From a virus: 29,001 nt of DNA. The stretch lies in IMG/VR virus record IMGVR_UViG_3300032246_001518, positions 1-29,001 of that record, one strand, 5' to 3'. A model generated the notes under the pieces. That model saw nothing but the letters and a program-made list of their open reading frames with translations, was not told the DNA's origin and ran no database searches. This document shows positions 2,642-19,993 of the stretch, in pieces. Positions within the stretch are counted from its first letter, which is position 1; each line of letters begins with the position of its first letter. A program made the position numbers and the translations under genes.

Positions 2642-2734
2642 ATGAAATTTATCAAAAAAATAAAATTAAAAATTAAAAAAATAATTTTTAAAATTAAACA
2701 AAAAAGATTTGAAAAAAAAGATTTTATTTATTAA
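2642..2734 (+). CDS. Possible 30-aa Lys-rich peptide
   Basis: ATG 2642 follows AAAAGGA with 6-nt spacing and opens a 30-codon frame that ends just before the ribosome binding site of the next gene. The peptide is strongly basic (about half lysine) and alternates Lys with Ile/Phe/Leu, so it could form a cationic amphipathic helix. Because A-runs in this very AT-rich stretch easily create Lys/Ile codons by chance, the call is tentative. Confidence 0.35.
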   Translation: MKFIKKIKLKIKKIIFKIKQKRFEKKDFIY

Positions 2735-2743: not shown

Positions 2744-3538
2744 ATGAAATTAAAACAATTATTTGGTTTTGTACATGATGATATGAATGTTCTTAAAAAT
2801 CATTATGAAAATACAAAAAAACATATAGAAATTTATTTTCCTAATGTTAATTTAAAAAAAGATGAATTTAATTCTTTTAATTATAGATCAGATAAATTTA
2901 TAAAAAATCATGAAGAAAAACATTTACTTTTTGTCGGATGCTCTTATACTTTTGGCTCTGGAATTGAACAAGAGCTAACTTGGCCAAAAATTGTTTATGA
3001 CAAAATATCAAAAAAAGAAAAAAATTCTGGATATTTTAACATAGGAACAACTGGAAGCTCTATAACAGATTCAATATATAATATGTTTAAATATTTTAAA
3101 ATTTACGGAAACCCTGATGTTATTTTTTTCTGCATGCCAGACGCACTGAGGTTTTATAATTTTGATGAAAATATAAATAAAATAAGAAATGCCTGGTACA
3201 GCGAAGAAGATTTAGAACTTCTTATGTTTATTAATAAAAACAATTACATGATTTTAGAAGAATATTGCAAAGCAAATAAAATAAAACTATATTCTTTTAC
3301 CTGGGTTTTTAATAAAAAAAGACATAAATCTGTAGATGATGTATTTGATAAAAATTTTTTTACGTTTTATAAAATTAATTTAGAAGATCAAGATGAATTT
3401 GTTTTTGCAGCTTTTGCAAAAGAAACAAAAAATCCTTACACACTATGGGCCAAAGATGAAAGACATAGGGGCACCGCATATCATGAATATTGGGCTAATT
3501 TTATTTATAATAAATATAACGAAAGTACTTTGCAATGA
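2744..3538 (+). CDS. SGNH/GDSL-like hydrolase, copy 1 (264 aa)
   Basis: The core matches the SGNH hydrolase fold: block I LLFVGCSYTFGSG with candidate nucleophile Ser67, a block II-like glycine in IGTTGSSI (about 100-106), block III NPDVIFFCMPD (123-133), and block V KDERH (Asp238-x-x-His241), the classical catalytic Asp/His spacing. SGNH enzymes are esterases, often acting on O-acyl groups of glycans. No signal peptide is seen, so it acts in the cytoplasm or on virion components. Its stop overlaps the start of a paralogue by 4 nt, which in turn overlaps a carbamoyltransferase, so the three are translationally coupled. Codon use is extremely AAA/ATA-rich compared with the structural genes. 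The substrate is unknown. Confidence 0.7.
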   Translation: MKLKQLFGFVHDDMNVLKNHYENTKKHIEIYFPNVNLKKDEFNSFNYRSDKFIKNHEEKHLLFVGCSYTFGSGIEQELTWPKIVYDKISKKEKNSGYFNIGTTGSSITDSIYNMFKYFKIYGNPDVIFFCMPDALRFYNFDENINKIRNAWYSEEDLELLMFINKNNYMILEEYCKANKIKLYSFTWVFNKKRHKSVDDVFDKNFFTFYKINLEDQDEFVFAAFAKETKNPYTLWAKDERHRGTAYHEYWANFIYNKYNESTLQ

Positions 3539-4287
3539 AATATAAAAATGTTTATTCTAAAGTTCATAGAAACCAATTTGAATTAATAAATTCTTCAAAT
3601 TACAAAAAAAATTTTTTTGGAGAAGAAAAAGAAATAAATTCTCACGGTTTTAGATCAGAAGAATTTAAAAATGCACATCAAGGCAAGCACATTCTTTTTT
3701 CTGGATGTTCTGTGACTAGTGGTGTTGGTTTGTTACAAGAAGAAATGTGGGCAAAAAAAACATATAATAAAATTTTAGAAAAAGAAGAATGTTCTGGATA
3801 TTTTAATATAGGCATTGGTGCAAGTGGGTTATGCGATCAAATATCAAATATGTTTAAATACTTTAACACTTATGGCAATCCAGACGTTATATTTTTTATG
3901 ATACCAGACGGAGGTAGATTTTATCATTATGAGGAATCTTCTGATCAAATAAGCCATTCTTTTATTGAAGATGAATATAAAAATTTTATATTTTTCTTGT
4001 ACATACAATACTACTTGATGTTAGAATCTTATTGCAAATCCAACAACATTAAGTTATTTTCTTTTAGCTATGTATCAAAAACACAAAAATATTTTGAAAA
4101 AAAATTTAAAACATTTTATAGTATTGATTTTAAAGATATGACTAATTTTGTTTTTAATTATGTTGAAAATAACAAAGGCATAAACTATTTAACAAAAGCA
4201 AGGGACGACATGCATTATGGAGTAGCTTATCACGAATATTGGGCTAACTTTATGCACAATACATACCTTGAAAGCAGCTCCTTATGA
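3535..4287 (+). CDS. SGNH/GDSL-like hydrolase, copy 2 (250 aa)
   Basis: A clear paralogue of the preceding gene: shared segments include FSGCSVTSGVG (nucleophile Ser59), SGYFNIG, MFKYF..YGNPDVIFF, and AYHEYWANFMHN. The catalytic Asp224-x-x-His227 pair (RDDMH) is kept. The start ATG sits in an ATGA overlap with the upstream stop, and its own stop overlaps the start of the carbamoyltransferase in the same way. Divergence from copy 1 around the active-site loops (GSGIEQELTW versus GVGLLQEEMW) hints at different acyl or glycan specificity. Tandem duplication is seen directly; the enzymatic role is inferred from SGNH family knowledge. Confidence 0.68.
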   Translation: MKYKNVYSKVHRNQFELINSSNYKKNFFGEEKEINSHGFRSEEFKNAHQGKHILFSGCSVTSGVGLLQEEMWAKKTYNKILEKEECSGYFNIGIGASGLCDQISNMFKYFNTYGNPDVIFFMIPDGGRFYHYEESSDQISHSFIEDEYKNFIFFLYIQYYLMLESYCKSNNIKLFSFSYVSKTQKYFEKKFKTFYSIDFKDMTNFVFNYVENNKGINYLTKARDDMHYGVAYHEYWANFMHNTYLESSSL

Positions 4288-5708
4288 AAATTTTAGGATT
4301 TAACGAAACATCTCACGATGCTGCAATGTCATTAATTAATGATGAAAAAATATTGTTTGCTGGACATGCAGAGCGGTATAGCAAGAAAAAAAATGATTGG
4401 TATAACAACAATGAAATATACCGTGATCTACTTAATTATGGTATTCCAGATGAGGCTGCTTATTATGAAAAGTCCCGTTTAAAAAAAATAAGAATTAGGT
4501 TGCGTGGCGGGGCATCAGATTGGAAGCCTGTTTATAAAGGCATAAAGGCAAAAGAATTTAAACACCATTACTCTCATGCAGCAGCAGGATATTATACAAG
4601 TCCATTTAATGATTCAGTTATTGTTGTATTAGATGCTATTGGAGAATTTAATACATCAACAATTTGGACGGGTATTAATGAAAAGATTTCTTTAGTAGAG
4701 AAAAGAAATTACCCCTTAAGCTTTGGACTATTTTATTCAGCATTTACACAATTGATTGGACTTATGCCCAATCAAGAAGAATATATCATGATGGGTATGG
4801 CTGCATATGGAGATAAAAATAAATATTTTGATAAAGTAAATGAATATTTTCCAAGCATTGAAAGGCAAAAATATAATTTTCATAAAGGAATTACTGATTG
4901 GGGCTGGGTAACTTCAGATCAAGATAAATTTGATATTGCAGCAGCAGTTCAATACGTGTATGAACTCAGATTAATTGAATTTATGAATCATGCAAAAATA
5001 ATGACTAGCAAAAAAAATCTTGTATTTATGGGTGGATGTGCATTAAATTGTTCTGCAAATACTTTATTGTGTAATATTTTTGATGATATATGGATTATGC
5101 CAAATCCAGGTGACGCTGGCTCAAGTTTGGGTGCAGCATTATCAATACGTGGATCACACATAAAGTGGGAAGGTCCTTATTTAGGATATGATTTAAAAAA
5201 TGAATATCCAGTTCAAAAAATTTTAGATGAATTGGTTAGCAAAGGAATAGCACCAGTAGCAGCGGGACGTGCAGAATTTGGTCCCCGAGCATTGGGCAAT
5301 AGAAGCATATTAGCTGATCCAACAGACATAAGGGTTAAAGATAAAGTTAATCAAATAAAAAAAAGAGAAATGTTTAGGCCTTTTGCTCCAGTTGTAATGG
5401 AAGAGCATGCTAATGAATGGTTTGATATGCCAAAAGGTAAGCCAAGCCCTTATATGCAATATGCTGTTAAATGCCTAAAGCCAGATTCAATACCCGCAGT
5501 TGTGCATAAAGATGGAACCTCAAGAGTCCAAACAGTAAATAAAGATCAACATCCAGGATTGTATGAAGTTCTCAGTATTTGGAATGAAATTACTGGAGTA
5601 CCAATTTTATTGAATACTAGTTTAAACATAAAAGGGCAGCCACTTTTAAATGATTGGGATGATATTAACGAGTGGAATAAAATGTACAAAACTGATATTA
5701 TAGTGTAA
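4284..5708 (+). CDS. NodU/CmcH-family O-carbamoyltransferase (474 aa)
   Basis: Enzymes of this family transfer a carbamoyl group from carbamoyl phosphate via carbamoyl-adenylate to a hydroxyl of a sugar, antibiotic or nucleobase. Recognisable elements are the N-terminal Kae1-like ILGFNETSHDAAMSL (His11-Asp12), the metal-binding FKHHYSHAAAGY (His94, His95, His98), FMGGCALNCSANT, and the start of the YrdC-like adenylation domain AEFGPRALGNRSILADP, FRPFAPVV and the C-terminal ILLNTSLNIKGQPL. It is somewhat shorter than typical members (550-600 aa), yet both domains are represented. It is coupled to two SGNH-like genes. In phages such enzymes have been linked to 5-hydroxymethylcytosine carbamoylation; here the neighbours favour sugar decoration, but both remain open. 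Confidence 0.88.
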   Translation: MKILGFNETSHDAAMSLINDEKILFAGHAERYSKKKNDWYNNNEIYRDLLNYGIPDEAAYYEKSRLKKIRIRLRGGASDWKPVYKGIKAKEFKHHYSHAAAGYYTSPFNDSVIVVLDAIGEFNTSTIWTGINEKISLVEKRNYPLSFGLFYSAFTQLIGLMPNQEEYIMMGMAAYGDKNKYFDKVNEYFPSIERQKYNFHKGITDWGWVTSDQDKFDIAAAVQYVYELRLIEFMNHAKIMTSKKNLVFMGGCALNCSANTLLCNIFDDIWIMPNPGDAGSSLGAALSIRGSHIKWEGPYLGYDLKNEYPVQKILDELVSKGIAPVAAGRAEFGPRALGNRSILADPTDIRVKDKVNQIKKREMFRPFAPVVMEEHANEWFDMPKGKPSPYMQYAVKCLKPDSIPAVVHKDGTSRVQTVNKDQHPGLYEVLSIWNEITGVPILLNTSLNIKGQPLLNDWDDINEWNKMYKTDIIV

Positions 5709-5714
5709 CAACAT

Positions 5715-5785
5715 TCCCAGATCGTCTAACGGTAGGACACCGCCCTTTGGAGGCGGGTATCTTGGTTCGAATCCAGGTCAGGGAG
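5715..5785 (+). tRNA. tRNA-Gln (anticodon TTG)
   Basis: Acceptor TCCCAGA/TCAGGGA pairs except for an A-A mismatch at the fifth pair. Anticodon stem CCGCC/GGCGG surrounds loop CTTTGGA (anticodon TTG, codon CAA), and the T arm is CTTGG-TTCGAAT-CCAGG. Discriminator G. The body is close to standard bacterial tRNA-Gln. Confidence 0.9.
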
Positions 5786-5788
5786 CAA

Positions 5789-5914
5789 GGCTATAAACGA
5801 CACAACTTAGGATGTTATAGTTACATATACACCCGAAACTCGGAAGCGAGTGGCGTGTGAGACAGATACAGCATGTACGTCATGTGCAACTGGAAGTCGC
5901 CATCGTTTATAGCC
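5789..5914 (+). ncRNA. Candidate structured RNA between two tRNAs (126 nt)
   Basis: The ends form a perfect 12-bp helix (GGCTATAAACGA at 5789-5800 with TCGTTTATAGCC at 5903-5914). Inside, AGTTACAT (5819-5826) pairs with ATGT-gc-AACT (5882-5891), ACAC+CC (5829-5834) pairs with GG-c-GTGT (5852-5858), and ACTCG/CGAGT (5838-5842, 5847-5851) closes a GAAG tetraloop. It lies 3 nt after tRNA-Gln and 3 nt before tRNA-Gly, so tRNA processing enzymes would release it. There is no T arm, anticodon loop or open reading frame of note. Phage T4 also encodes two stable RNAs of unknown function inside its tRNA cluster. I do not recognise this RNA as a known class. Confidence 0.7.
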
Positions 5915-5917
5915 CCT

Positions 5918-5988
5918 GCGAATATTGCATAGTGGTAGTGCGTAACCTTGCCAAGGTTAATGTGCGAGTTCGATTCTCGCTATTCGCT
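5918..5988 (+). tRNA. tRNA-Gly (anticodon GCC)
   Basis: Perfect acceptor stem GCGAATA/TATTCGC, anticodon stem TAACC/GGTTA around loop TTGCCAA (anticodon GCC), T arm GCGAG-TTCGATT-CTCGC, discriminator T. Unlike the other tRNAs in the window it reads GGC/GGU rather than an A-ending codon. Confidence 0.92.
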
Positions 5989-5993
5989 CTTCG

Positions 5994-6002
5994 TGGTATA
6001 AT
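5994..6002 (+). promoter_or_regulatory. Extended -10 promoter TGG-TATAAT
   Basis: TGGTATAAT immediately after tRNA-Gly, 24 nt before the ATG at 6027. No good -35 box is visible, but the TGn extension recurs at many promoters in this window and can replace it. Confidence 0.65.
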
Positions 6003-6026
6003 TTATATAAATAATTAGGGGGAAAT

Positions 6027-6878
6027 ATGCCATACAAAATTGTTCAACATGAAGGTAAGTTTTCAGTAGTAGCACAAAATACTGGACACGTTGCTGGTAC
6101 ACACCCAAGCAAGCAAAAAGCACAAGCACAAATGGCTGCTTTATATGCCAATGAACCAGAAGCAAGTGTAAAAAAATGTATGACTTGTGGTTGCGATGAT
6201 TTAGGTAATGATCATCATTATATTTCCGATACAGAAAAGTGTGTAAATTGCATTGATAAAGGTCAGGGTCCTTGCTGGGACGGATACCAATATGCTGGAA
6301 CAAAAGATCAAAATGGAAAAACAGTTCCTAATTGCATTCCAGTGAAAAAAGCTGATGGTGGATATCAACCAAATGCTGGCATGAAAGCAGCAGCACGTCG
6401 TGCATTAAAATGGAAAGAAGATGGTCAAGCCACGGGAGCGGGTACACCAGTTGGTTGGGGTCGTGCAAGCGATATAGTTGCTGGAAGATCAATGTCTCTT
6501 GATACAGTTAAAAGAATGTATTCTTTCTTTTCAAGACATGAAGTTGATAAAAAAGGAAAAAATTGGGATAAACCATCTAACGGTAAAATTATGTGGAACG
6601 CATGGGGTGGAGATGCAGGTTTTGCATGGTCTCGTGCAATTGTAAATAAAGAAGAAAAAATTGCAAAAGAAATTTGGAATGGCGCATTTTCACCAATTCA
6701 AAAGAAAAAAGATAAATTTAAAGATATAATTTCAGATAAAAAAGGAAAACCATCAGATAAAGAATTATATGCAAGAGTAATTGCTGATGCTAAAAAGAAA
6801 TTTGAAGTGTATCCTTCAGCTTACGCAAATGGTTGGGTTGTTCAGGAATACAAACGCCGTGGAGGAAAATACAATTAA
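6027..6878 (+). CDS. Multidomain phage protein with DUF5872-like C-terminus (283 aa)
   Basis: Three parts are visible. Residues 1-48 (PYKIVQHEGKFSVV...KAQAQMAALYANEPE) resemble a short module repeatedly seen in phage structural proteins. Residues 53-77 contain CMTCGC...CVNC, a potential zinc ribbon. Residues 111-200 (NAGMKAAARRALKW, GTPVGWGRASDIVAGRSMSLDTVKRMYSFFSRHE, WNAWGGDAGFAWSRAIV) match a domain I remember from head-associated phage proteins, and the end (VYPSAYANGWVVQEYKRRGGKY) fits DUF5872. Between them is EIWNGAFSPI (about 215-224), a motif shared with two other proteins here. A strong GGGGGAAAT ribosome site precedes ATG 6027. A virion or prohead role is inferred, not shown. Confidence 0.7.
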   Translation: MPYKIVQHEGKFSVVAQNTGHVAGTHPSKQKAQAQMAALYANEPEASVKKCMTCGCDDLGNDHHYISDTEKCVNCIDKGQGPCWDGYQYAGTKDQNGKTVPNCIPVKKADGGYQPNAGMKAAARRALKWKEDGQATGAGTPVGWGRASDIVAGRSMSLDTVKRMYSFFSRHEVDKKGKNWDKPSNGKIMWNAWGGDAGFAWSRAIVNKEEKIAKEIWNGAFSPIQKKKDKFKDIISDKKGKPSDKELYARVIADAKKKFEVYPSAYANGWVVQEYKRRGGKYN

Positions 6879-7302
6879 AAAAGAACGTGGCAATATTGCG
6901 GGAGATTCATCGGCAAGCTCTGGTCGCATAAGCGGTGGCGTTGGTTGGAAGATAGAATTTAATACTCCAGATTGCCAACACGGTTGGTCTGTAATTAAAG
7001 TGGGTTCGGGACAATCAATAGGTTGTTATCTTAAAGAAGAAGATGCAAAAGCAGCATTAGAAGCATTAGCAGTTACAGAACCAGTAGTAAAGGGTGCAAA
7101 TCCTACTCCAACAAAAGAATCAACTTCAATATGGGATGGAGTTTTTTTGCCACTCGGAGAAGCAATGTCTGGAACTAATTATGGTGAAATGTCGGGAGAT
7201 GCTGGATGGATGTCAACTTATAATTCACCACCACAACATGACGGTAAACCAACAGTTGGATATGGTAATCACGCAGATCCAAAAGGAAGATCTAACCAAT
7301 AA
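6858..7302 (+). CDS. Hypothetical protein with IWxGxFxP motif (about 147 aa, start uncertain)
   Basis: The coding part is clear from KIEFNTPDCQHGWSVIKVGSG to the stop, including SIWDGVFLPLG (codons 7129-7155). No ATG stands in a sensible place. GTG 6858 follows AGGA at 6844-6847; the alternative is ATT 6874, 8 nt after GGAGG (6861-6865) and overlapping the stop of the previous gene as ATTAA. A +1 frameshift from the upstream gene is a third option. The product is Gly/Ser-rich, hydrophilic and acidic towards the C-terminus, with no membrane segment. Its short motif is shared with the proteins at 6027-6878 and 14283-15011, pointing to a common partner. Function unknown. Confidence 0.6.
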
Positions 7303-7317
7303 TAGAAAGAGTAAAAA

Positions 7318-8190
7318 ATTAATACAACTTCTATCCAAGATGTAGCTCTTGTTAGGATTATAGGAAATGATATCCCAGGTATACACGGAAATTTGCAATC
7401 ATTAAAAAATTTAATTTACATTTTAGAAAATGAAAAAAAATTTAAAAATGTTAAAAAAATTTTTATTATTAATAAAATATTAAATAAAAAAATTGAAAAA
7501 AAAATAATTAATGAAATTAAAAAACATGGTTTTATTTATTATGTAATTCCATTTAATTATGATAAATTTTTAGAAACATTTAATGAAGATTTAAAAAAAG
7601 AAATTAAAAATGATATTGTTGAAAACAAAATTAAAAAATTTTTAAAATCAATTCATTATATAATAGATATAAATAATGCAAGAAACAAAGGTCTTGAAAT
7701 TGGTTTTTTACATTCAAAAACAGTATTAATATTTGATGGAAATTCTTTTTTTACTGAAGAACTTTATAATGATTTTAAAAACAAACATAAAAAATTTAAT
7801 GACCAAAAAAATATTTTTGTTTTTCCAGTTCACAGGTTAAAAAATTATGAACAAATCTTTAAAAAAGAAGAACATAATTTTTACTACGAACCACAAGTTG
7901 GACTAGAAAATATTAATTCAAAATTTGATCCAGATTGTTTTTATACAGATTTTGAAAAAATTGAATTTTTAATAAGACACGGCGTAGACGGATATTGGAA
8001 TGAATGGAAAAAAGACAATCAGCAATATGCGTTAAAAGATTTTAATAATGTATACTGCAAAGGAATATTTAGGCTTCCAACTCACACTAACTTTGATTTT
8101 AATGATAACAAACTGTCGTTAGAAAAAAAACAAGCAAGATATAAGGGAATGCTGGACCTTTTAGACTTAGCATTTTTAAACGCTTATTAA
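7318..8190 (+). CDS. Glycosyltransferase-like (GT-A-like) protein, copy 1
   Basis: A paralogue of the protein at 11850-12782. Conserved parts are the N-terminal strand LVRIIGNDIPGIH, SLKNLIYILENE, KKIFIINKILNKKIEKK, NARNKGLEIGFLHSKTVLIFDGNSFFTEELY, VFPVHRL, NFYYEPQVGLENI, FLIRHGVDGYWNEW and YCKGIFRLPT. The ARNxGLxxG...LIFDG block resembles the ARNxG/DxD region of GT-A glycosyltransferases, which is why I suggest that fold. The first ATG-like start in frame (TTG 7393) would remove the conserved N-terminus. ATT 7318, 6 nt after AAAGAG, keeps it; ATC 7333 aligns with the ATG of copy 2. Very Lys/Ile-rich codon use. Acceptor and donor unknown. Confidence 0.6.
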   Translation: MNTTSIQDVALVRIIGNDIPGIHGNLQSLKNLIYILENEKKFKNVKKIFIINKILNKKIEKKIINEIKKHGFIYYVIPFNYDKFLETFNEDLKKEIKNDIVENKIKKFLKSIHYIIDINNARNKGLEIGFLHSKTVLIFDGNSFFTEELYNDFKNKHKKFNDQKNIFVFPVHRLKNYEQIFKKEEHNFYYEPQVGLENINSKFDPDCFYTDFEKIEFLIRHGVDGYWNEWKKDNQQYALKDFNNVYCKGIFRLPTHTNFDFNDNKLSLEKKQARYKGMLDLLDLAFLNAY

Positions 8191-8202
8191 AAACCACAAT
8201 TG

Positions 8203-8211
8203 TGATACAAT
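8203..8211 (+). promoter_or_regulatory. Extended -10 promoter TGA-TACAAT
   Basis: TGATACAAT ends 21 nt before ATG 8233 and is followed by a good AGAAAGG ribosome site, so a transcript for the three radical-SAM genes can start near 8218. The -35 region is weak. Confidence 0.6.
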
Positions 8212-8232
8212 GTTTAAGTAGAAAGGCATAAA

Positions 8233-9225
8233 ATGATTCATCATATGAGTATAGACCCAAATGGTTTTTGTAACGCAAAATGTTGGTTTTGTCCTGTTGC
8301 ATACGTTGGCAATTCAAAAGAAAACAAAACAAACATGTCTCTTGAAACAATGGAAAGTATCTTTAAGCAATTAGATGAAGGTAAAGGCGATTGGGTTTCA
8401 GAAATGATTTTTAATACTCCAATTCATTTTAACGAAGTTTTGCTTTATCCGCATTTTGAAGAGATGCTAAGTTTGCATAGAAAATATAAAATTGGTGTAG
8501 GAATATATACCAACGGCGTAAACTTAACAAGAGAAAAAACTGATCTAATTAAAAAATATCGAGACACTGTTACGGTTGTTGCCATAAATGTCCCTTCTTT
8601 AGAAGCAGAACAATGGTCTAAATTTACTGGTTTTAATATTAAAATTTTTCCAAAACTATTAGATAATCTTAAATATGCAGAAGAAAAACTTTCTAAAATA
8701 TATTCACCAAAACATTTTTATATTATGGCAAACGGCGTTAATGAAAAATCATTATTTAAAAACGGGGGCTGGTTGGATATGTTGCCAAATGCTCCAAAAT
8801 ATGACATGGATTTAGATACAGGAACTCTTGCAAACATTGTAAAAAACATGAAAGAGTTGTTGCCAAATACAAACATATGGGGCAGAAATAATTTGGGTGA
8901 TAGAACCAGTGTATTAGAAGATTTAAATATTATTTCAAATCAATCTGCAATAAAAGAAAAAAATAAAGGAAAAGTAATTGGTTGTGGCTTGAAGTATAAC
9001 GAAAATCTTTATATATCAGCTACGGGCAATGTTTATATTTGTTGTATAGATTTTAATTATGAAACAGTTTATGCAAATATTCATGAAACACCACTTAAAG
9101 AAATTTGGTTGGGTGCAGACAGAAGAGAAGCAATTCAAAAAGCTTATGATGGACTTTGTTTAAATTGTTTGCATGGAGTTAGAGAAGAAGGATCTGGTCC
9201 AGCGATTAAAAAGGTTATAGAGTAA
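8233..9225 (+). CDS. Radical SAM / SPASM-twitch-like protein, copy 1 (330 aa)
   Basis: The N-terminus has the radical-SAM cluster motif CNAKCWFC (C13-x3-C17-x2-C20), which binds a [4Fe-4S] cluster and splits S-adenosylmethionine to start radical chemistry. A TIM-barrel core follows (LYPHFEEMLSLHRKY, GIYTNGVNL, AINVPS). The C-terminal part resembles a SPASM/twitch auxiliary cluster domain: VIGCGL, GNVYICCIDF, ETVYANI, LKEIW and LCLNCLH. Such enzymes mature peptides or modify sugars and aminoglycosides. No precursor-peptide gene is obvious nearby; GT-like, SGNH and carbamoyltransferase genes are. Two paralogues follow at once. A 71-nt block (8612-8682) is identical in copy 3. Confidence 0.88.
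   Translation: MIHHMSIDPNGFCNAKCWFCPVAYVGNSKENKTNMSLETMESIFKQLDEGKGDWVSEMIFNTPIHFNEVLLYPHFEEMLSLHRKYKIGVGIYTNGVNLTREKTDLIKKYRDTVTVVAINVPSLEAEQWSKFTGFNIKIFPKLLDNLKYAEEKLSKIYSPKHFYIMANGVNEKSLFKNGGWLDMLPNAPKYDMDLDTGTLANIVKNMKELLPNTNIWGRNNLGDRTSVLEDLNIISNQSAIKEKNKGKVIGCGLKYNENLYISATGNVYICCIDFNYETVYANIHETPLKEIWLGADRREAIQKAYDGLCLNCLHGVREEGSGPAIKKVIE
8612..8682 (+). repeat. 71-nt exact repeat within radical-SAM copy 1
   Basis: Identical base for base to 10629-10699 in copy 3, encoding EWSKFTGFNIKIFPKLLDNLKYAE-type sequence, while copy 2 differs at many synonymous sites over the same stretch. Confidence 0.9.
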
Positions 9226-9230
9226 TTTTA

Positions 9231-10223
9231 ATGATTAAAAGCATAAATATTGACCCTAATGGTTTATGTAATGCAAAATGCTGGTTTTGTCCAGTTGCTT
9301 ATGAAGGCAATCCTAAAAAACAAAAAACAAACATGCCCTTAGATTTAATGGAAAGCATTCTTTCCCAGTTAGATGCGGGAAGAGGAGAATGGGTTTCAAA
9401 AAAAATATACAATGCGCCAATTCATTTTAATGAAGTATTACTCTATCCATATTTTAAAGAAATGCTTGATTTGCATAGAAAATATAAGGTATTTGTATCC
9501 ATTTATACTAATGGTGTAAACTTAACAAAGGAAAAAACAGATACAATTGTGGAATACAGAGATGTTGTAGACTTAATAGCTTTAAATGTTCCATCTCTTA
9601 ATGCAGAGCAATGGTCAAAATTTACTGGATTTAATATTAAAATTTTTCCTAAGTTAATAGAAAATTTAAAATATGCAGAAGAAAAATTATCAACTGTTTA
9701 TTCCCCAGAAGATTTTTATATTATGGCAAACGGTGTTGATGAGAAGTCATTATTTAAAAATGGTGGGTGGATAGAAATGCTAGAGGATGCTCCAAATTAC
9801 AACCTAGATTTAAATAATGGAACCTTAGCTACAATTGTAAAAGAAATGAAAGAAATTTTACCAAATACAAATATTTGGGGAAGAAACAATTTGGGCGATA
9901 GAACTGGTGTTTTAGAAGAACTTAAAATAATTTCTAATCAATCTGCAGTTAACCAAAGAAATAGCGGTAAAGTAATTGGTTGTGGTTTAAAGTTTGATGA
10001 AAGACTTTACATTGCAGCAAATGGGGATGTTTATATTTGTGCTGTAGACTTTAATTATGAAATTGTTTACGGCAATGTAAAAGAAATACCACTTAAAGAA
10101 ATTTGGCAAGGATCACAAAGAAAAGATGCTATCAAAAAAAGCTACGAAACTTTGTGTCAATCATGTCTACATGCAATTAAAGAAGAAGGTTCTGGACCCT
10201 CATTAGTAAAGGTTATAAAATAA
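9231..10223 (+). CDS. Radical SAM / SPASM-twitch-like protein, copy 2 (330 aa)
   Basis: Same length and architecture as copy 1: IDPNGLCNAKCWFCPVAYEGN at the N-terminus with the CxxxCxxC cluster, barrel core with IYTNGVNL and ALNVPS, and C-terminal VIGCGL, GDVYICAVDF and LCQSCLH. The auxiliary region has one cysteine fewer than copies 1 and 3 (YICA instead of YICC), so the shared four cysteines (C, C, CxxC) are the likely cluster ligands. It starts 5 nt after the stop of copy 1 with only a weak ribosome site, suggesting translational coupling. It is the most diverged of the three at nucleotide level, so it may have a different substrate. Confidence 0.88.
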   Translation: MIKSINIDPNGLCNAKCWFCPVAYEGNPKKQKTNMPLDLMESILSQLDAGRGEWVSKKIYNAPIHFNEVLLYPYFKEMLDLHRKYKVFVSIYTNGVNLTKEKTDTIVEYRDVVDLIALNVPSLNAEQWSKFTGFNIKIFPKLIENLKYAEEKLSTVYSPEDFYIMANGVDEKSLFKNGGWIEMLEDAPNYNLDLNNGTLATIVKEMKEILPNTNIWGRNNLGDRTGVLEELKIISNQSAVNQRNSGKVIGCGLKFDERLYIAANGDVYICAVDFNYEIVYGNVKEIPLKEIWQGSQRKDAIKKSYETLCQSCLHAIKEEGSGPSLVKVIK

Positions 10224-10225
10224 AA

Positions 10226-11239
10226 ATGATAAATTTGTATAAACCAACAATTAAATATGTCAATGTTGATCCAAATGGAATATGCAATGCAAAATGTTGG
10301 TTTTGCCCAGTTGCATATGTAGGAAATTCAAAAGAAAATAAAACAAATATGTCCATTGAAACAATGGAAAACATTTTTAAACAACTCGCTGAAGGCCGTG
10401 GAGATTTTGTTTTTCCAGGAACAATTTATAATTCTCCAATTCATTTTAATGAAATGTTACTTTATCCGTATTTTGAAGAAATGCTAGAACTGCATAGAAA
10501 ATATAATGTTGCTATGATTGTTTTTACCAACGGTGTAAATTTAACAAAAGAAAAAACAGATTTGATTAAGAAATATAAAGATGTTGTTAAAGAAATAAGG
10601 TTAAATGTTCCTTCTGCAAATGCAGAAGAATGGTCTAAATTTACTGGTTTTAATATTAAAATTTTTCCAAAACTATTAGATAATCTTAAATATGCAGAAC
10701 AAGAATTGTCTACAATTTATGACTCAAAAAATTTTTACATAATGGTAAATGGCGTTAATGAAAAATCATTATTTAAAAACGGAGGCTGGACTGAAATTCT
10801 TGAAAATGCACCAGAATATAATTTAAGCTTAACAGATGGAACAATGTCAAAAGCAGTTGAAGAATTTAAAGTTATTTTTCCAAAAATACATGTTTGGGGA
10901 GGAAATAATTTAAGCGATAGAACAAGCATCTTGGAAGATTTAAAAATTATATCTAATCAACCTTCAATTAAAGCAAAAAATCAAGGAAAAGTAGTAGGTT
11001 GCGGAACATCTTTTAATGAAGGTTTTTACGTATCTGCAACTGGCAATGTTTATATTTGCTGCATAGATTTTGAATATGAAACAGTTTATGCAAATATTCA
11101 TAATACCTCTATTAAAGAAATTTGGGAAGGATTTCAAAGGCAAGAAGCAATTAAAAAAGCGTATTCTGGCTTATGTGTTGAATGCCTTCATGCTATAAAA
11201 GAAGAAGGATTTGGACCCAGCTTGCAAAAAACAATTTAA
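10226..11239 (+). CDS. Radical SAM / SPASM-twitch-like protein, copy 3 (337 aa)
   Basis: Third tandem paralogue, with a short N-terminal extension (MINLYKPTIKYVNVDPNG) before CNAKCWFC. The barrel differs locally from copies 1 and 2 (DFVFPGTIYNSPIHFNEMLLYP; MIVFTNGVNL; GGNNLSDRT in place of GRNNLGDRT), whereas the C-terminal GNVYICCIDF and LCVECLH ligands are kept. The start is 2 nt after the upstream stop. The block 10629-10699 is identical to copy 1, evidence of recent recombination or gene conversion between the outer copies. It ends just before the promoter of the small heat-shock gene. Substrate unknown; see the neighbouring GT-like genes. Confidence 0.88.
   Translation: MINLYKPTIKYVNVDPNGICNAKCWFCPVAYVGNSKENKTNMSIETMENIFKQLAEGRGDFVFPGTIYNSPIHFNEMLLYPYFEEMLELHRKYNVAMIVFTNGVNLTKEKTDLIKKYKDVVKEIRLNVPSANAEEWSKFTGFNIKIFPKLLDNLKYAEQELSTIYDSKNFYIMVNGVNEKSLFKNGGWTEILENAPEYNLSLTDGTMSKAVEEFKVIFPKIHVWGGNNLSDRTSILEDLKIISNQPSIKAKNQGKVVGCGTSFNEGFYVSATGNVYICCIDFEYETVYANIHNTSIKEIWEGFQRQEAIKKAYSGLCVECLHAIKEEGFGPSLQKTI
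10629..10699 (+). repeat. 71-nt exact repeat within radical-SAM copy 3
   Basis: Exact duplicate of 8612-8682; a further shared stretch of about 30 nt encodes GVNEKSLFKNG in both genes. Confidence 0.9.
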
Positions 11240-11250
11240 TATATTATAAT
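11222..11250 (+). promoter_or_regulatory. Promoter for small heat-shock gene (TTGCAA-17-TATAAT)
   Basis: -35 TTGCAA 11222-11227 and -10 TATAAT 11245-11250. The predicted transcript starts near 11257 with a small hairpin TGAGC/GCTCA (11256-11260, 11272-11276). The same GCTC could instead pair with GAGC at 11301-11304, next to the ribosome site. Confidence 0.65.
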
Positions 11251-11312
11251 ATAAATGAGCTGCCAATAGGGGCTCAAAATCTAACTAACTTGCTGAAAAG
11301 GAGCTAAGTAAA

Positions 11313-11747
11313 ATGACACATCTAAGATACACAGACCCATTCGTACAAATTCAATCTATTTTTAATGACCCGTTCTTTCTAGGGTTTAATGATCAATTTG
11401 TAAGGTGGGAATCAAATAAGAAAACAACATCACAATTTCCTCCATATAATGTAAAAAAGGTTGACGAAGACAATTACACAATTGAACTTGCAGTTGCGGG
11501 ATATTCCCGTGAAGACCTTGAGATTAAAGTAGAAAAAGATACTCTAACAATCAAAAGCGAAAAAGAAAAAGACGAAAAATCTGATTTCCTACATCGTGGC
11601 ATTGCGGGACGTAATTTTACTCAACACTTTACATTAGGAGAATATATGGTTGTTAAATCTGCTTCACTTGAAAATGGATTACTTTCAATTAATATTGAAC
11701 GTGAACTTCCAGAGGAAGCCAAACCTAAGACTATTAAAATCAAATAG
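11313..11747 (+). CDS. Small heat-shock protein, HSP20/alpha-crystallin family (144 aa)
   Basis: ATP-independent holdase chaperone that keeps unfolding proteins soluble in the cytoplasm. The alpha-crystallin domain runs from about residue 45 (YNVKKVDEDNYTIELAVAGYSREDLEIKVEKDTLTIKSEK) to 138 and contains the hallmark A-x-x-x-n-GLL motif (ASLENGLLSINI). The C-terminal IKIK supplies the I-x-I oligomerisation motif. The N-terminal arm begins HLRYTDPFVQIQSIFNDPFF, typical of phage and bacterial members. Length is normal. The gene has its own promoter (11222-11250) and an AAAGGAGC ribosome site. Related sHSP genes are common in cyanophages and other large aquatic phages, where they are thought to assist capsid or enzyme folding. 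Confidence 0.95.
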   Translation: MTHLRYTDPFVQIQSIFNDPFFLGFNDQFVRWESNKKTTSQFPPYNVKKVDEDNYTIELAVAGYSREDLEIKVEKDTLTIKSEKEKDEKSDFLHRGIAGRNFTQHFTLGEYMVVKSASLENGLLSINIERELPEEAKPKTIKIK

Positions 11748-11755
11748 TGTATAAT
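11748..11755 (+). promoter_or_regulatory. -10 promoter TG-TATAAT
   Basis: TGTATAAT straddles the stop codon region of the sHSP gene and precedes a structured leader of the second GT-like gene. The -35 is weak. Confidence 0.5.
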
Positions 11756-11759
11756 TAAA

Positions 11760-11820
11760 ATCTGCACCCCTTCATCGGGGAGTCGCAGATTGTGACCTGA
11801 GCAAGTCCTAAAACTGCTCA
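11760..11820 (+). promoter_or_regulatory. Structured leader with two hairpins upstream of GT-like gene 2
   Basis: Hairpin 1: ATCTGC (11760-11765) with GCAGAT (11785-11790), inner CCCC/GGGG (11767-11770, 11777-11780). Hairpin 2: TGAGCA (11798-11803) with TGCTCA (11815-11820). Neither is followed by a T-run, so they are not terminators. The roughly 90-nt leader lies between a -10 box and ATG 11850. It could be a regulatory leader or a small stable RNA. I do not recognise a known riboswitch class. Confidence 0.55.
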
Positions 11821-11849
11821 CATAGAAATTAGGGGTAAACAAAATATCA

Positions 11850-12782
11850 ATGCATCAAGTGTCTCTTGTTCGCATCATAGGAAATGATGTCCCTGAAATA
11901 CACAGCCAAGACCAATCTTTAAAAAATTTAGAATATATTTTAAAAAATGAAAAAAATTTTTTAAATTGTAAAAAAATATTTATTTTAAATAGAATAGTTA
12001 ATAAAAATATTGAAAAAGAAATTATTGATCAACTTAAAAAACATAATATTGAATATTTTATTATACCTTTTCAAACAAAAGAATTTATAAATTTATTTAA
12101 TAAAAATTTTAAATGTTTAGATAAAAAACTAAATTTGTTTAATTTTGAACCAGAAGATTCCTTTGCTTTGACAGAAACAATGTCGGAATCTATATATTTT
12201 TTAACAAATGTAAATAAAGCAAGAAATTTTGGAATAGAAAAAGGAAATATTTATTCAAATACAACTTTAATATTTGATGGCAGTTGTTTTATGACAGAAG
12301 AACTTTATTTTGATTTTTTAAATAATTTAAATAAAACAGATAAAAATGATAAAGCTATTTTTATTTTTCCAATGCATCGTTTATCAAATTACAATCAAAT
12401 AAAAAATAAAGAAAAACATAATTTTTGGTTTGAGCCACAAATTGGAATGAAAAATATTGTTTTAAATTTTGACAATAATAAACAATGGCCAGAAGATAAA
12501 ATTGAATTTTTACACAGATATGGCATAGAAGGTTATTGGGATTTATGGAAAGAAAAAAATCAAAAATATGAAAGTCTAGATTGTTTAAAGATTTATTGCA
12601 AGGGAGTATTTAGGCTTCCAACTTGGACATTTTTTGACATAAAAAACAAAAACAAAAAACCAGACCTAAATTCAATAAAAAACTTTGGATTAATACCTGG
12701 CAGAAATTTATTTAGAAAAGTAGGATTGATCAAGCTTTTAACATTGGCATATTCACAATCTTTTATTGACAAAGAAGGTTGA
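11850..12782 (+). CDS. Glycosyltransferase-like (GT-A-like) protein, copy 2 (310 aa)
   Basis: Paralogue of the protein at 7318-8190, with a normal ATG and the whole conserved N-terminus: MHQVSLVRIIGNDVPEIH, SLKNLEYILKNE, KKIFILNRIVNKNIEKE, NKARNFGIEKGNIYSNTTLIFDGSCFMTEELY, IFPMHRLSNY, NFWFEPQIGM, FLHRYGIEGYWDLW and YCKGVFRLPTW. The ARNxG...LIFDG region resembles the donor/metal site of GT-A enzymes. It has about 20 extra residues in the middle (residues 75-100) and a C-terminal extension compared with copy 1. The two copies bracket the radical-SAM triplet, so a shared pathway is likely. Its last codons contain the -35 box of the Dps promoter. Confidence 0.62.
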   Translation: MHQVSLVRIIGNDVPEIHSQDQSLKNLEYILKNEKNFLNCKKIFILNRIVNKNIEKEIIDQLKKHNIEYFIIPFQTKEFINLFNKNFKCLDKKLNLFNFEPEDSFALTETMSESIYFLTNVNKARNFGIEKGNIYSNTTLIFDGSCFMTEELYFDFLNNLNKTDKNDKAIFIFPMHRLSNYNQIKNKEKHNFWFEPQIGMKNIVLNFDNNKQWPEDKIEFLHRYGIEGYWDLWKEKNQKYESLDCLKIYCKGVFRLPTWTFFDIKNKNKKPDLNSIKNFGLIPGRNLFRKVGLIKLLTLAYSQSFIDKEG

Positions 12783-12794
12783 TGGGTATATAAT
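12766..12794 (+). promoter_or_regulatory. Consensus sigma70-type promoter for Dps gene
   Basis: TTGACA (12766-12771), 17-bp spacer, TATAAT (12789-12794): a perfect consensus, with the -35 inside the 3' end of the upstream gene. Expected start near 12801, 27 nt before the ATG. Confidence 0.85.
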
Positions 12795-12827
12795 TATATT
12801 TATAAAGACGTACAGGAAGTGGTAAAT

Positions 12828-13274
12828 ATGGCAACAAATCAAGAATTGGTAAGTGTTTTAAAAGAATTACAATCTATGGCGATGAAGATTTATGCACAGT
12901 CTCATGGCTACCATTGGAATATTAAAGGTCGGGAATTCAAACAAGACCATGCTTTTTTGTTAGAAATTTACGAAGACGTGTTTGATTCAATTGATACTTA
13001 CGCAGAAAATTTAAGAAAGATTGGCGTTAAAGCCCCGTTTGGCTTAGAGCAATTACAACAAAATAGTGCATTAAGAATAAATGATTCATTTGAATTAACA
13101 GCAGAACAAATGTTTTTTGAATTAAGTAAAACAAATTTACAAATAATTGATAAATTAAAAGATGGTTGCGATATTGCTGATAAAGCAAGGGAACAAGGCA
13201 TACTAAACTTTTTTGCTGATCGCCTAGACAAGCATGAATTTTGGCAATGGCAGTTGACAGAAACCCTAGCATAA
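12828..13274 (+). CDS. dps: Dps-like ferritin (DNA protection during starvation), 148 aa
   Basis: Dps proteins form 12-subunit cages that oxidise and store iron and often coat DNA, protecting it from Fenton damage. The signature AQSHGYHWNIKGREFKQDHAF...DSIDTYAENLRKIG is present, with ferroxidase ligands corresponding to His29, His41, Asp56 and Glu60; the position usually occupied by another Asp is Leu45, with Glu46 beside it. ATG 12828 is preferred over the in-frame GTG 12819 because it has AGGAAG 8 nt upstream. A consensus promoter drives it, suggesting strong expression. Phage-borne Dps is uncommon; together with thioredoxin and an Fe-S carrier it suggests iron and redox management during infection. 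Confidence 0.9.
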   Translation: MATNQELVSVLKELQSMAMKIYAQSHGYHWNIKGREFKQDHAFLLEIYEDVFDSIDTYAENLRKIGVKAPFGLEQLQQNSALRINDSFELTAEQMFFELSKTNLQIIDKLKDGCDIADKAREQGILNFFADRLDKHEFWQWQLTETLA

Positions 13275-13283
13275 TTATATAAT
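13254..13283 (+). promoter_or_regulatory. Promoter upstream of tRNA cluster (TTGACA-18-TATAAT)
   Basis: TTGACA 13254-13259 lies inside the last codons of dps and TATAAT at 13278-13283 right after its stop. Expected start near 13290, only about 17 nt before a terminator-like hairpin. Confidence 0.75.
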
Positions 13284-13306
13284 ATAAATATCAAACAAAA
13301 GATAAC

Positions 13307-13338
13307 AAAAGGTACTAGAGATAGTACCTTTTGTTTTT
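13307..13338 (+). terminator. Intrinsic terminator (or attenuator) before tRNA cluster
   Basis: Perfect 10-bp stem AAAAGGTACT/AGTACCTTTT, 6-nt loop, followed by GTTTTT. It ends the dps transcript but also lies just downstream of the promoter at 13254-13283, so it could attenuate tRNA transcription. Confidence 0.8.
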
Positions 13339-13343
13339 AATAT

Positions 13344-13417
13344 GGAGCAGTAGCTTAGTTGGTTAAAGCCCCGAACTCATAATTCGGTAATCGTAGGTTC
13401 AAGTCCTACCTGCTCCA
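13344..13417 (+). tRNA. tRNA-Met (anticodon CAT, elongator type)
   Basis: Acceptor GGAGCAG/CTGCTCC, anticodon stem CCGAA/TTCGG around CTCATAA, T arm GTAGG-TTCAAGT-CCTAC, discriminator A. The first acceptor pair is a normal G-C, so it is not an initiator. A lysidine-type Ile (AUA) tRNA cannot be excluded, but tRNA-Ile(TAT) already exists here. Confidence 0.88.
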
Positions 13418-13421
13418 CAAA

Positions 13422-13494
13422 GCCCCAGTAATCCAGTGGTAGAGATAGTAGACTTAAAATCTATACAGCGTTGGTTCGAATCCAACTTGGGGTA
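13422..13494 (+). tRNA. tRNA with anticodon TAA (Leu), lacking the long variable arm
   Basis: Acceptor GCCCCAG/TTGGGGT (G-T wobbles at both ends), anticodon stem GTAGA/TCTAT around CTTAAAA (anticodon TAA, codon UUA), variable region only about 5 nt (ACAGC), T arm GTTGG-TTCGAAT-CCAAC, discriminator A. Bacterial tRNA-Leu normally has a long variable arm, so this is unusual. Confidence 0.8.
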
Positions 13495-13495
13495 C

Positions 13496-13568
13496 GCTTC
13501 TATAGCTCAGTTGGTAGAGCAGCAGACTTTTAATCTGCGGGTCGTAGGTTCAAAACCTACTGGAGGCA
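13496..13568 (+). tRNA. tRNA-Lys (anticodon TTT)
   Basis: Acceptor GCTTCTA/TGGAGGC, D stem GCTC/GAGC, anticodon stem GCAGA/TCTGC around CTTTTAA (TTT), T arm GTAGG-TTCAAAA-CCTAC, discriminator A. It serves the very abundant AAA codon. Confidence 0.93.
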
Positions 13569-13572
13569 CTAA

Positions 13573-13645
13573 GCCTTTGTAGCTCAGGGGATAGAGCGAG
13601 ACTCTTCTAAGGTCTGCGTCGCAGGTTCGATTCCTGCCAAGGGCG
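13573..13645 (+). tRNA. tRNA-Arg (anticodon TCT)
   Basis: Acceptor GCCTTTG/CAAGGGC, D stem GCTC/GAGC, anticodon stem AGACT/GGTCT around CTTCTAA (TCT), T arm GCAGG-TTCGATT-CCTGC, discriminator G. It reads AGA, the main Arg codon of this AT-rich phage. Confidence 0.92.
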
Positions 13646-13668
13646 CATGTATTTATTTAATATTAGTG

Positions 13669-13674
13669 TATAAT
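13669..13674 (+). promoter_or_regulatory. -10 box TATAAT after tRNA cluster
   Basis: TATAAT directly followed by GATTTATGAGGAAAGG. It overlaps a nominal ATG at 13673, so that ATG cannot be the translation start. The -35 is weak. Confidence 0.55.
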
Positions 13675-13699
13675 GATTTATGAGGAAAGGTTTAACCAT

Positions 13700-14026
13700 A
13701 TGGATTATGATCCTTCTAATGAAGAGCATCAACAAATAATGAATTATTTGATTGAAGAAGGTGCAGCATTTTTAGACGGAGTAGATGAAGATGGTGAAGC
13801 CATATATAAGTTTGATATGGATGTTTTGGAAGAGATTATGCCAGAACTACATGCTGTTATGGAAGAAGATATAAATCAAGTTTTGGTTGATTTGTATCAA
13901 AAAGGTTTAATTGAAGTATCTTATGATGAAAATTTAAATGCCCTTATGGACATTTCAGAGCAAGGTAAAGTTGCTTTGATGGAAGCAGGGTTTGATTTTG
14001 ATGAAGAAGATGAATTCGAATTATAA
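13700..14026 (+). CDS. Hypothetical acidic protein, 108 aa
   Basis: Unrecognised. An ATG at 13673 in the same frame overlaps the -10 box; ATG 13700 follows GAGGAAAGG (13682-13690) and is chosen. The product is strongly acidic (MDYDPSNEEHQQI..., ending FDFDEEDEFEL) and mostly helical; the segment VLVDLYQKGLIEVSYDENLNALMDISEQGKVALMEAG has the look of a small winged-helix-like or helical domain, though I would not assign one. No cysteines, no membrane segment. It starts a run of co-directional genes with good ribosome sites. High acidity could indicate DNA mimicry or a scaffold-like role, but this is speculation. Confidence 0.7.
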   Translation: MDYDPSNEEHQQIMNYLIEEGAAFLDGVDEDGEAIYKFDMDVLEEIMPELHAVMEEDINQVLVDLYQKGLIEVSYDENLNALMDISEQGKVALMEAGFDFDEEDEFEL

Positions 14027-14046
14027 AACAAGGTGGTGATTTAAAT

Positions 14047-14283
14047 ATGGATAACAACCAACAAAGCAAAGAGGGTGGAGTACAGCAACCTGCTGTAGCA
14101 ACACCAGTTACAGAACAAGCAGGCCCACAAGCAAGCTTGGCTTCTGATTCAAGAACAGACCTAGGCGTTAATAACGCTGGTAATCTTAACATTGCAAGCC
14201 CTTTTACTGGGCGTGATGTTTCAATGACTACACCACAAAATGCTGGAGGAAATATTACTTCAACAGAGGCGGGGTCCAAGTAA
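14047..14283 (+). CDS. Hypothetical low-complexity protein, 78 aa
   Basis: A short, probably disordered protein rich in Gln, Asn, Gly, Ser, Thr and Ala with no hydrophobic core, preceded by a very strong ribosome site (AAGGTGGTGA). Its stop shares a base with the start of the next gene (TAATG), so the two are translationally coupled. Codon use (GCA, CCA, ACA) resembles that of the highly expressed secreted gene at 17891. Its composition suits a linker, scaffold or virion-associated peptide. No family recognised. Confidence 0.65.
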   Translation: MDNNQQSKEGGVQQPAVATPVTEQAGPQASLASDSRTDLGVNNAGNLNIASPFTGRDVSMTTPQNAGGNITSTEAGSK

Positions 14284-15011
14284 TGGAAACACAAACAAAT
14301 AATAATCTTTCTGAAAATTCTAAAGTTATTAAATTTATTGAAGAGGTAAAAGAAGCTTTTATTAAAGCAATTGGTACAAGTTCATCAATAGATCAAGAGC
14401 GAGACGAGAGATCAGTAGAGAATTACGTTAGAGGAAACACTAATACAAATGTTAATGCGGAACCTAGCGATTACACGATTGGAGGTAATTTAATGTCAAA
14501 TAATACAACAGAACCAGATCCACAGGGAGATATTGCTGTAACAAAGGTAATTGATCAAATGACACGTCCAGAGGGCGATGTATCAGTTTCAGATGCACCA
14601 AATAATCCAGCAATTGTTCCAGATCAAGCTACAATTCCAAGCTCTGCTACTTCAGCAGTTGCTCCAACATCTGAAGAGATGGCAGAGCCAGTTGAAAAAG
14701 CTGCAACATGTAAGGAATGTGGTCAAACACTTCCAGTTGCAAAGTTAGATGAAATTGCAAAAGTTGAAACATGTGCAGATTGCGGTAAGCCTGGAGATCA
14801 ATGCAATTGCGTTGATAAGGCAGTAGATGCAAAAGCATGTGCAGATTGCGGTAAGCCTATGAATCTATGTAACTGCATGGGTAAGGCAGTAGATGCAGAA
14901 GAATCTGCAAAGCATGAAGCAGAAGAAACTTCAGCAGAAGAAGCAAAAGAAGAAATGAAAAAATCAATTGGTTCGCCAATATGGCAGGGTTCATTCCTAC
15001 CAATTAACTAA
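14283..15011 (+). CDS. Hypothetical Cys-rich protein with C-terminal IWxGxFxP motif (242 aa)
   Basis: Disordered, Thr/Asn/Pro-rich N-terminal two thirds, then a zinc-ribbon-like zone: CKECGQ (about residue 140), followed by two tandem 22-residue units beginning CADCGKP and containing CNC and KAVDA. An acidic helix (EAEETSAEEAKEEMKKS) leads to the extreme C-terminus SPIWQGSFLPIN. That final motif also occurs in the proteins at 6027-6878 and 6858-7302. The pattern suggests an assembly factor or decorated structural protein with a docking peptide at its tail. It is coupled to the preceding gene and followed by a strong terminator. Function unknown. Confidence 0.65.
   Translation: METQTNNNLSENSKVIKFIEEVKEAFIKAIGTSSSIDQERDERSVENYVRGNTNTNVNAEPSDYTIGGNLMSNNTTEPDPQGDIAVTKVIDQMTRPEGDVSVSDAPNNPAIVPDQATIPSSATSAVAPTSEEMAEPVEKAATCKECGQTLPVAKLDEIAKVETCADCGKPGDQCNCVDKAVDAKACADCGKPMNLCNCMGKAVDAEESAKHEAEETSAEEAKEEMKKSIGSPIWQGSFLPIN
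14772..14903 (+). repeat. Two tandem 66-nt coding repeats
   Basis: Units 14772-14837 and 14838-14903 each encode 22 residues: CADCGKP-x3-CNC-x2-KAVDA-x2. The first 21 nt and the KAVDA codons are nearly identical, pointing to recent duplication of a metal-binding unit. Confidence 0.85.
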
Positions 15012-15031
15012 TCTATATATACGTATATATG

Positions 15032-15066
15032 TACACAAGGACGGTTTCCCCCGTCCTTGTGTATTT
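15032..15066 (+). terminator. Intrinsic terminator after Cys-rich gene
   Basis: Stem TACACAAGGACGG/CCGTCCTTGTGTA with loop TTTCCC, followed by TTT. A 16-bp AT palindrome centred on ACGT (15015-15030) lies just before it. Confidence 0.8.
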
Positions 15067-15078
15067 AGAAAGGAAATT

Positions 15079-15447: not shown

Positions 15448-15449
15448 GC

Positions 15450-15504
15450 TTGACAAATGTAATGCTGAACTGGTACAATTAAATACAACTACTAACAAAG
15501 GAAA
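15450..15504 (+). promoter_or_regulatory. groES promoter plus conserved leader
   Basis: TTGACA (15450-15455), 18-bp spacer ending TGG, -10 TACAAT (15474-15479), then 7 nt and the leader AACTACTAACAAAGGAAA (15487-15504). An identical leader at the same distance follows the promoter at 24595-24624. The leader contains the ribosome site. Confidence 0.85.
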
Positions 15505-15507
15505 AAA

Positions 15508-17287: not shown

Positions 17288-17288
17288 A

Positions 17289-17834: not shown

Positions 17835-17890
17835 AATTGGTTGCATAAGCAATCATTATCCTGTACAGGGATACAAACTATAGGAGAAAA

Positions 17891-18895: not shown

Positions 18896-18905
18896 ATTAA
18901 AACAT

Positions 18906-18935: not shown

Positions 18936-18936
18936 G

Positions 18937-19991: not shown

Positions 19992-19993
19992 AA

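Follow-up and report, generated by a model that had tools for sequence, protein, structure and literature searches.

Analysis of a 29,001-base virus record (IMG/VR record IMGVR_UViG_3300032246_001518), a fragment that is referred to here at its full length as the window, revealed a micropeptide gene beside an island of tailoring-type genes at positions 2744–12782. We tentatively conclude that this island combines one conserved unit (the module), composed of the micropeptide, an O-carbamoyltransferase (CTase) and mostly SGNH-fold enzymes, with optional cargo of radical SAM (rSAM) and glycosyltransferase (GT)-like genes, and that the micropeptide would act, as its likeliest function, in carbamoyl (acyl) transfer, either as substrate or as shuttle. 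An earlier note on the same DNA had described eight genes (two SGNH, one carbamoyltransferase, two GT-like and three rSAM); all eight open reading frames (ORFs) are present, and the identity of each is backed by a profile, a predicted structure or unchanging residues. That note had missed the micropeptide ORF at 2642–2734; genes for a DUF5872-containing protein and Hsp20 also lie inside the island. An unexplained set of phage 'tailoring' genes thereby becomes a testable unit.

Co-occurrence of the island genes across viral loci

A scan with the SGNH family recovered 18 further viral loci, of which 14 encode a CTase, nearly always adjacent, the remaining four being located where a contig ends or next to the terminase. 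SGNH and CTase genes occurred together in 51 of 80 held-out CTase loci, which were obtained in a new scan with the CTase family and served as test set, and members of the rSAM or GT families were found in none of these 80. Within 14 large module contigs, a single rSAM gene was detected, at the opposite end of a 160-kb contig, and no GT family member. The complete eight-gene set was restricted to the window and a sibling contig of 33.6 kb (IMGVR_UViG_3300032303_002768; L004/L005/L027), in which the same region is present in near-identical form. The combination of SGNH, CTase and rSAM genes was observed in two distant viruses, the marine single-cell virus AG-345-D19 (L028) and L026; in L026, genes for an aminotransferase and a kinase/nucleotidyltransferase accompany it. 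Most loci are fragments with flanks of 4–10 kb, and the IMG/VR loci are mutually related, so that locus counts do not represent independent events.

As SGNH and CTase genes co-occur while the rSAM and GT genes are separable from them, the eight genes do not form one system, and co-function of all eight was rejected on co-occurrence across viral loci. The expectation that the same gene set would recur in related phages thus holds for the SGNH–CTase half and was refuted for the whole island.

In related phages the same slot holds a tryptophan halogenase, a 2-oxoglutarate-Fe (2OG-Fe) oxygenase and a GlcNAc-type GT. The halogenase is located at 5574–7157 of L043 (PF04820, 3e-108) and, by inspection, at 2281–3897 of L049; proteins resembling DUF6065 by eye were also seen in the slot of both loci, with no Pfam match where tested. 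On a plasmid of Mesorhizobium huakuii (L139), a 45% identical CTase is accompanied by DUF6071, radical SAM, aminotransferase, 2OG-Fe oxygenase and kinase-like genes, a content similar to that of the viral locus L026. Among 385 genomes from the class to which G010 belongs, no DUF6071 protein was found. A literature search for phage SGNH proteins together with a carbamoyltransferase returned nothing relevant, with subscription journals largely outside its coverage.

A short cationic peptide with a nearly fixed C-terminus

The micropeptide gene of the window (2642–2734; this and all features below lie on the plus strand) encodes 30 amino acids, MKFIKKIKLKIKKIIFKIKQKRFEKKDFIY, is Lys-rich, ends in Asp-Phe-Ile-Tyr and terminates 9 bases upstream of the first SGNH gene. 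It was found by inspecting small ORFs adjoining the SGNH and CTase genes. A first, blind pattern (a short, Lys/Arg-rich ORF with a C-terminal aromatic-aliphatic-aromatic motif, Phe being allowed as last aromatic residue and up to three extra residues being tolerated) gave 10 matches in 11 module loci, compared with 0–2 in shuffles. The final pattern was Lys-rich with C-terminal [FY]-[IVLTM]-Tyr and Tyr required as last residue; its second-last position had been loosened once YTY and similar variants had turned up in some held-out loci, and the unloosened first pattern already matched in 45 of the 80. With the final pattern, 61 ORFs were identified in 59 of the 80 held-out loci, while shuffles of the same DNA yielded 0–2. 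Directly before the CTase gene lie 34 of these ORFs, with 23 directly before an SGNH gene and four directly after the CTase gene; two more lie elsewhere. The commonest distance to the next gene is −1 (30 times), the stop codon overlapping the next start, which couples the micropeptide translationally to its neighbour.

Over all loci, 60 distinct peptides were collected, with Tyr in last position in all 60, Ile second-last in 50 and Phe or Tyr third-last in 59. The ratio of non-synonymous to synonymous polymorphism (pN/pS) of 0.28, calculated from 32 pairs, indicates a real, constrained gene. Towards the N-terminus the peptides keep a common composition of Lys with aliphatic and aromatic residues but vary in sequence, only the C-terminal tripeptide being fixed. 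What is new here is a micropeptide that gave no Pfam and no convincing PHROG match, yet carries a nearly fixed C-terminal tripeptide in 60 distinct sequences.

The same arrangement was found in the marine virus L028, with a peptide ending in ..RKSDPYIYEE, and a Streptomyces goshikiensis plasmid shows the order peptide (..RRTDPFMYK), CTase, DUF6071 with an SGNH-like GCS motif. No peptide ORF was seen beside the more distant CTases of cyanophages and pelagiphages (27–34% identity by tblastn), and rSAM loci without a CTase contained no credible peptide ORF.

The CTase and the SGNH-fold enzymes

Downstream of the micropeptide gene follow two SGNH-fold enzymes of 264 (SGNH1, 2744–3538) and 250 amino acids (SGNH2, 3535–4287) and the CTase of 474 amino acids (4284–5708). 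SGNH2 starts 4 bases inside SGNH1 and the CTase 4 bases inside SGNH2, overlaps that the sequence confirms for the genes described in the earlier note as translationally coupled.

The CTase matched Pfam PF16861 (4e-51) and PF02543 (3e-37) as well as phrog_1601 (2e-103). Both carbamoyltransferase domains, the catalytic His/Asp residues and the PRALGNRS motif are present and the TobZ-type catalytic motifs are invariant, which assigns the protein by its sequence to the NodU/TobZ-type carbamoyltransferases. It has the two Pfam domains and every catalytic motif in common with these enzymes and with the phage 'Nol-like carbamoyltransferase' phrog_1601; unlike other NodU/TobZ O-carbamoyltransferases, it is linked to a micropeptide and an SGNH enzyme. 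It belongs to its own clade, the nearest outside relatives found being 42–46% identical. Across the SGNH–CTase phages, the CTase is 66–85% identical to the window copy and the SGNH proteins mostly 25–47%.

SGNH1 and SGNH2 are 43% identical, and SGNH1 carries its catalytic Ser in a GCSYT motif together with DxxH. An AlphaFold2 model of SGNH2 (predicted local distance difference test score, pLDDT, 86) adopts an SGNH fold, with matches including TesA, GDSL esterases and PatB (Z 12.9, root-mean-square deviation (rmsd) 3.5, 173 residues aligned); the top VIA structural match was CgnD of the crocagin cluster (8a2n; Z 15.9, rmsd 3.3, 208 aligned). The catalytic Ser and DxxH were unchanged in the first five copies compared, and 94 of 97 family members retain the Ser/Asp/His triad. 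The modelled alpha/beta fold, the block I Ser and the block V DxxH therefore point to membership of the SGNH/GDSL hydrolase superfamily. No match to DUF6071 (PF19547) was obtained in a Pfam search of the window SGNH proteins, which distinguishes them from the DUF6071 proteins that show an SGNH-like GCS motif and lie beside 43–45% identical CTases on Mesorhizobium and Streptomyces plasmids.

Many module loci contain two or three SGNH copies. There are three in the sibling contig, where a further upstream gene (3696–4448 of L005; 54% identical) is present that the window does not have. Two SGNH paralogues near a CTase (8659–9501 of L040 and 7854–8654 of L046) have neither the catalytic Ser nor DxxH and are possibly non-catalytic partners.

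Proposed function and alternative readings

Two characterized systems offer a framework for the module. In Dlt/Pat, the Tyr of an F-X-Y-X-X-F motif (FIYANF, FIYSSF), carried by the microprotein DltX or by the C-terminus of PatA, receives an acyl group that is passed on to the SGNH enzyme DltD or PatB and from there to the polymer (PMC12148441). In crocagin biosynthesis, CgnD releases the 21-amino-acid CgnA, a peptide that ends in an Ile-Tyr-Trp core, and CgnI adds the carbamoyl group (PMC10070186). An SGNH-fold enzyme and a short Tyr-containing tail come together in both, joined in crocagin by a carbamoyltransferase. We infer that the CTase uses the micropeptide as carrier or substrate and that the SGNH enzyme acts next. 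According to this proposal, the module would comprise a cationic micropeptide of 21–40 amino acids with a C-terminal aromatic-(Ile/Val/Leu/Thr)-Tyr sequence, the O-carbamoyltransferase and usually one to three SGNH-fold enzymes. The CTase would convert carbamoyl phosphate to carbamoyl-adenylate by TobZ chemistry and load the carbamoyl group onto the micropeptide, most simply at its invariant C-terminal Tyr. A Ser-His-Asp SGNH enzyme could then take the group over for delivery to the final acceptor, or could transfer or trim an acyl group there, a step modelled on the FIY-type motifs of DltX/PatA that hand acyl groups to DltD/PatB. A glycan or nucleotide sugar that is made or encountered while freshwater Actinobacteria are being infected is the probable acceptor. 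The three rSAM/SPASM and two GT-A enzymes would be additional, exchangeable tailoring enzymes that share this cargo slot behind the terminase.

The likeness to the Dlt/MBOAT–SGNH systems (DltX-DltB-DltD, PatA-PatB) lies in an SGNH enzyme combined with a short peptide or C-terminal sequence of F-I-Y type. A group-carrying Tyr is established for Dlt/Pat (PMC12148441). The module is phage-encoded, has a carbamoyltransferase in place of the MBOAT protein, and Tyr is the last residue of its peptide. Several observations weigh against our proposal. The micropeptide has no counterpart to the XXF found after Tyr in DltX/PatA. MBOAT (PF03062) was not found in the window, the sibling or the 14 large module contigs, all of them fragments in which absence is not proof, and the module proteins gave no sign of a membrane or secretion step. 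The slow turnover of carbamoylated serines makes a carbamoyl-Ser relay less convincing. Peptide and CTase occurred without an SGNH match within 4 kb in 13 of the 80 held-out loci, SGNH without peptide in five and neither in 16, and the mutual relatedness of the loci counts here as well. It is doubtful, in our view, that a free-standing cationic micropeptide of 25–35 amino acids serves as a covalent carrier between CTase and SGNH transferase in a system that is widespread in viruses and occasionally found in bacteria; if so, this would be a previously undescribed soluble, membrane-independent analogue of the DltX shuttle with carbamoyl chemistry.

Close behind the carrier reading we rank a pathway resembling that of ribosomally synthesized and post-translationally modified peptides, which is possible though less probable. 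Here, as in crocagin, the micropeptide would serve as a precursor from which the SGNH enzyme, acting as hydrolase, removes the leader; the CTase would cap the [FY]IY core to give a small, phage-encoded bioactive compound, which rSAM/SPASM and GT enzymes might change further. A gene arrangement of this kind (an aromatic-core peptide as putative precursor, an SGNH-fold enzyme and a CTase) is present in the module loci. Precursor size (about 20–30 amino acids), C-terminal aromatic core and carbamoyltransferase correspond to CgnA and CgnI (PMC10070186), and the alignment of CgnD to the SGNH2 model takes in the N-terminal extension (Z 15.9, 208 residues). Peptide maturation is common for SPASM rSAM enzymes (NCBIfam matches), and relatives of the window carry 2OG-Fe oxygenase and Trp halogenase genes. 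The lead of CgnD is small, however (Z 15.9 versus 14.3 for the next rows, with modest Foldseek template modelling scores of 0.40–0.42), the rSAM family is not linked to a peptide, as seen from the rSAM loci without CTase, and some module loci have no SGNH gene. Unlike CgnA, the module peptide is strongly basic and has a YIY/FIY core instead of IYW, and cyclisation and the peptide-binding partners CgnB/CgnE are features of crocagin. The carrier reading is preferred because only the C-terminal tripeptide ending in Tyr is fixed, while the N-terminal part varies.

The same property would suit an adaptor, which we regard as unlikely: a cationic, amphipathic micropeptide could dock CTase and SGNH on a membrane, nucleic acid or virion through its C-terminal aromatic-Ile-Tyr as docking motif, while the enzymes decorate a glycan directly. 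The N-terminal part is fixed in composition alone, the tripeptide is the only fixed sequence, and CTase and SGNH otherwise resemble ordinary soluble enzymes; yet a substrate or carrier would account no less well for a C-terminal Tyr that is invariant, has a free side chain and lies next to group-transfer enzymes.

Quite improbable is the construction and decoration of one virion or host-surface glycan by all eight genes. The earlier note's suggestion of tailoring on a carbohydrate or other acceptor is reasonable in view of the GT-A folds, the fusion of GT relatives to alginate lyase, the rSAM relatives clustered with GT2-, sulfotransferase- and epimerase-like genes, and the sugar-nucleotide genes that adjoin cyanophage and pelagiphage CTases. 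A single eight-gene system does not stand, as the eight genes meet only in the window and its sibling, the rSAM and GT genes are missing from nearly all module phages, and the micropeptide is left unaccounted for. Carbamoylation of 5-hydroxymethylcytosine (5hmC) in phage DNA, for which a carbamoyltransferase of the same superfamily exists (PMC8670742), is very improbable. The window CTase shares 25% identity with the 5hmC enzyme and has retained Gly421/Arg423 (TobZ numbering), specificity residues that are replaced by Cys/Thr in the 5hmC enzyme, and no thymidylate-synthase-family gene was found in 14 SGNH–CTase phage contigs of 60–160 kb.

If the Tyr of the micropeptide carries or receives carbamoyl, viruses of freshwater Actinobacteria would put the acyl-Tyr/SGNH logic to a new use or would encode a peptide product of their own. 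The micropeptide is also a candidate substrate for the phage 'Nol-like carbamoyltransferases' of the window CTase clade.

Radical SAM and GT-like genes

The three rSAM genes (8233–9225, 9231–10223 and 10226–11239) encode paralogues, copies 2 and 3 being 68–71% identical to copy 1, each with Pfam rSAM and SPASM domains. The invariant cysteines of the family (C13, C17, C20, C251, C270, C309 and C312) correspond to CxxxCxxC and the SPASM cysteines, and by sequence the proteins classify as radical SAM/SPASM enzymes. Defence of the viperin (pVip) type was rejected for them, NF038283 reaching only 24–30 bits against a cut-off of 180 and PADLOC giving only partial matches. The neighbours of viral rSAM relatives (L007, L009 and L012) look GT2-, sulfotransferase-, NDP-sugar epimerase- and GT32-like by inspection; a genome scan returned no cellular rSAM relatives.

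The GT-like proteins GT1 (7318–8190) and GT2 (11850–12782) are 46% identical. A model of GT2 (pLDDT 83) displays a GT-A fold, with matches to 6p61 (Z 15.9) and TarP (Z 14.5), and both proteins are predicted to share this fold. At the candidate DXD-type metal site of the family, D143-G144 is invariant and the third residue varies (N/S/G/D). Cellular relatives are fusions to alginate lyase or PhyH domains. GT1 is a real gene, for which the TTG start chosen before proved wrong: the frame opens after a stop at 7312 and reaches upstream to an ATT at 7318–7320, 3 bases past that stop, where the sibling has ATG. GT1 seems to use this ATT as a rare start codon, unless its start has decayed. No family name below fold or superfamily level could be assigned to the GT-like or rSAM proteins, and SGNH2, rSAM2 and GT2 gave no match in reference phages. 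One viral cluster (3511–12210 of L053) combines rSAM/SPASM, methyltransferase-like, GT2, DXD-type GT, GT-like family, GT25 and PIG-L-like deacetylase genes.

Genomic context of the window

The terminase large subunit (81–1442) is at most 62% identical to those of Streptomyces phages with genomes near 130 kb. A WhiB gene (16011–16349; PF02467) indicates an actinobacterial host, as argued likewise for freshwater actinophages (PMC6802176, PMC10202952); hosts and phages have been cultured for the order of 'Ca. Planktophila' (PMC10202952). Two Pfam-assigned genes within the island lie outside the module, a DUF5872-containing protein (6027–6878), which is a frequent phage neighbour, and Hsp20 (11313–11747), an unrelated phage gene. 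Further host-like genes at 11313–27149 comprise, besides Hsp20 and WhiB, a Dps-like ferritin, GroES, thioredoxin, a proteasome-like peptidase and an IscA-like Fe-S protein, and the window contains eight tRNA genes.

Diversification under selection, as in antigen variation, had been proposed for the duplicated genes; the ratio of non-synonymous to synonymous substitution (dN/dS) between window and sibling, at 0.04–0.35 where defined, does not support it. Synonymous divergence (dS) from the sibling (L005) ranges from about 0.01 to 0.46 across neighbouring genes, with tenfold jumps, and within the island amounts to 0.03 for rSAM1 and GT2 versus 0.46 for the CTase. Such jumps between neighbouring genes indicate mosaic recombination or exchange.

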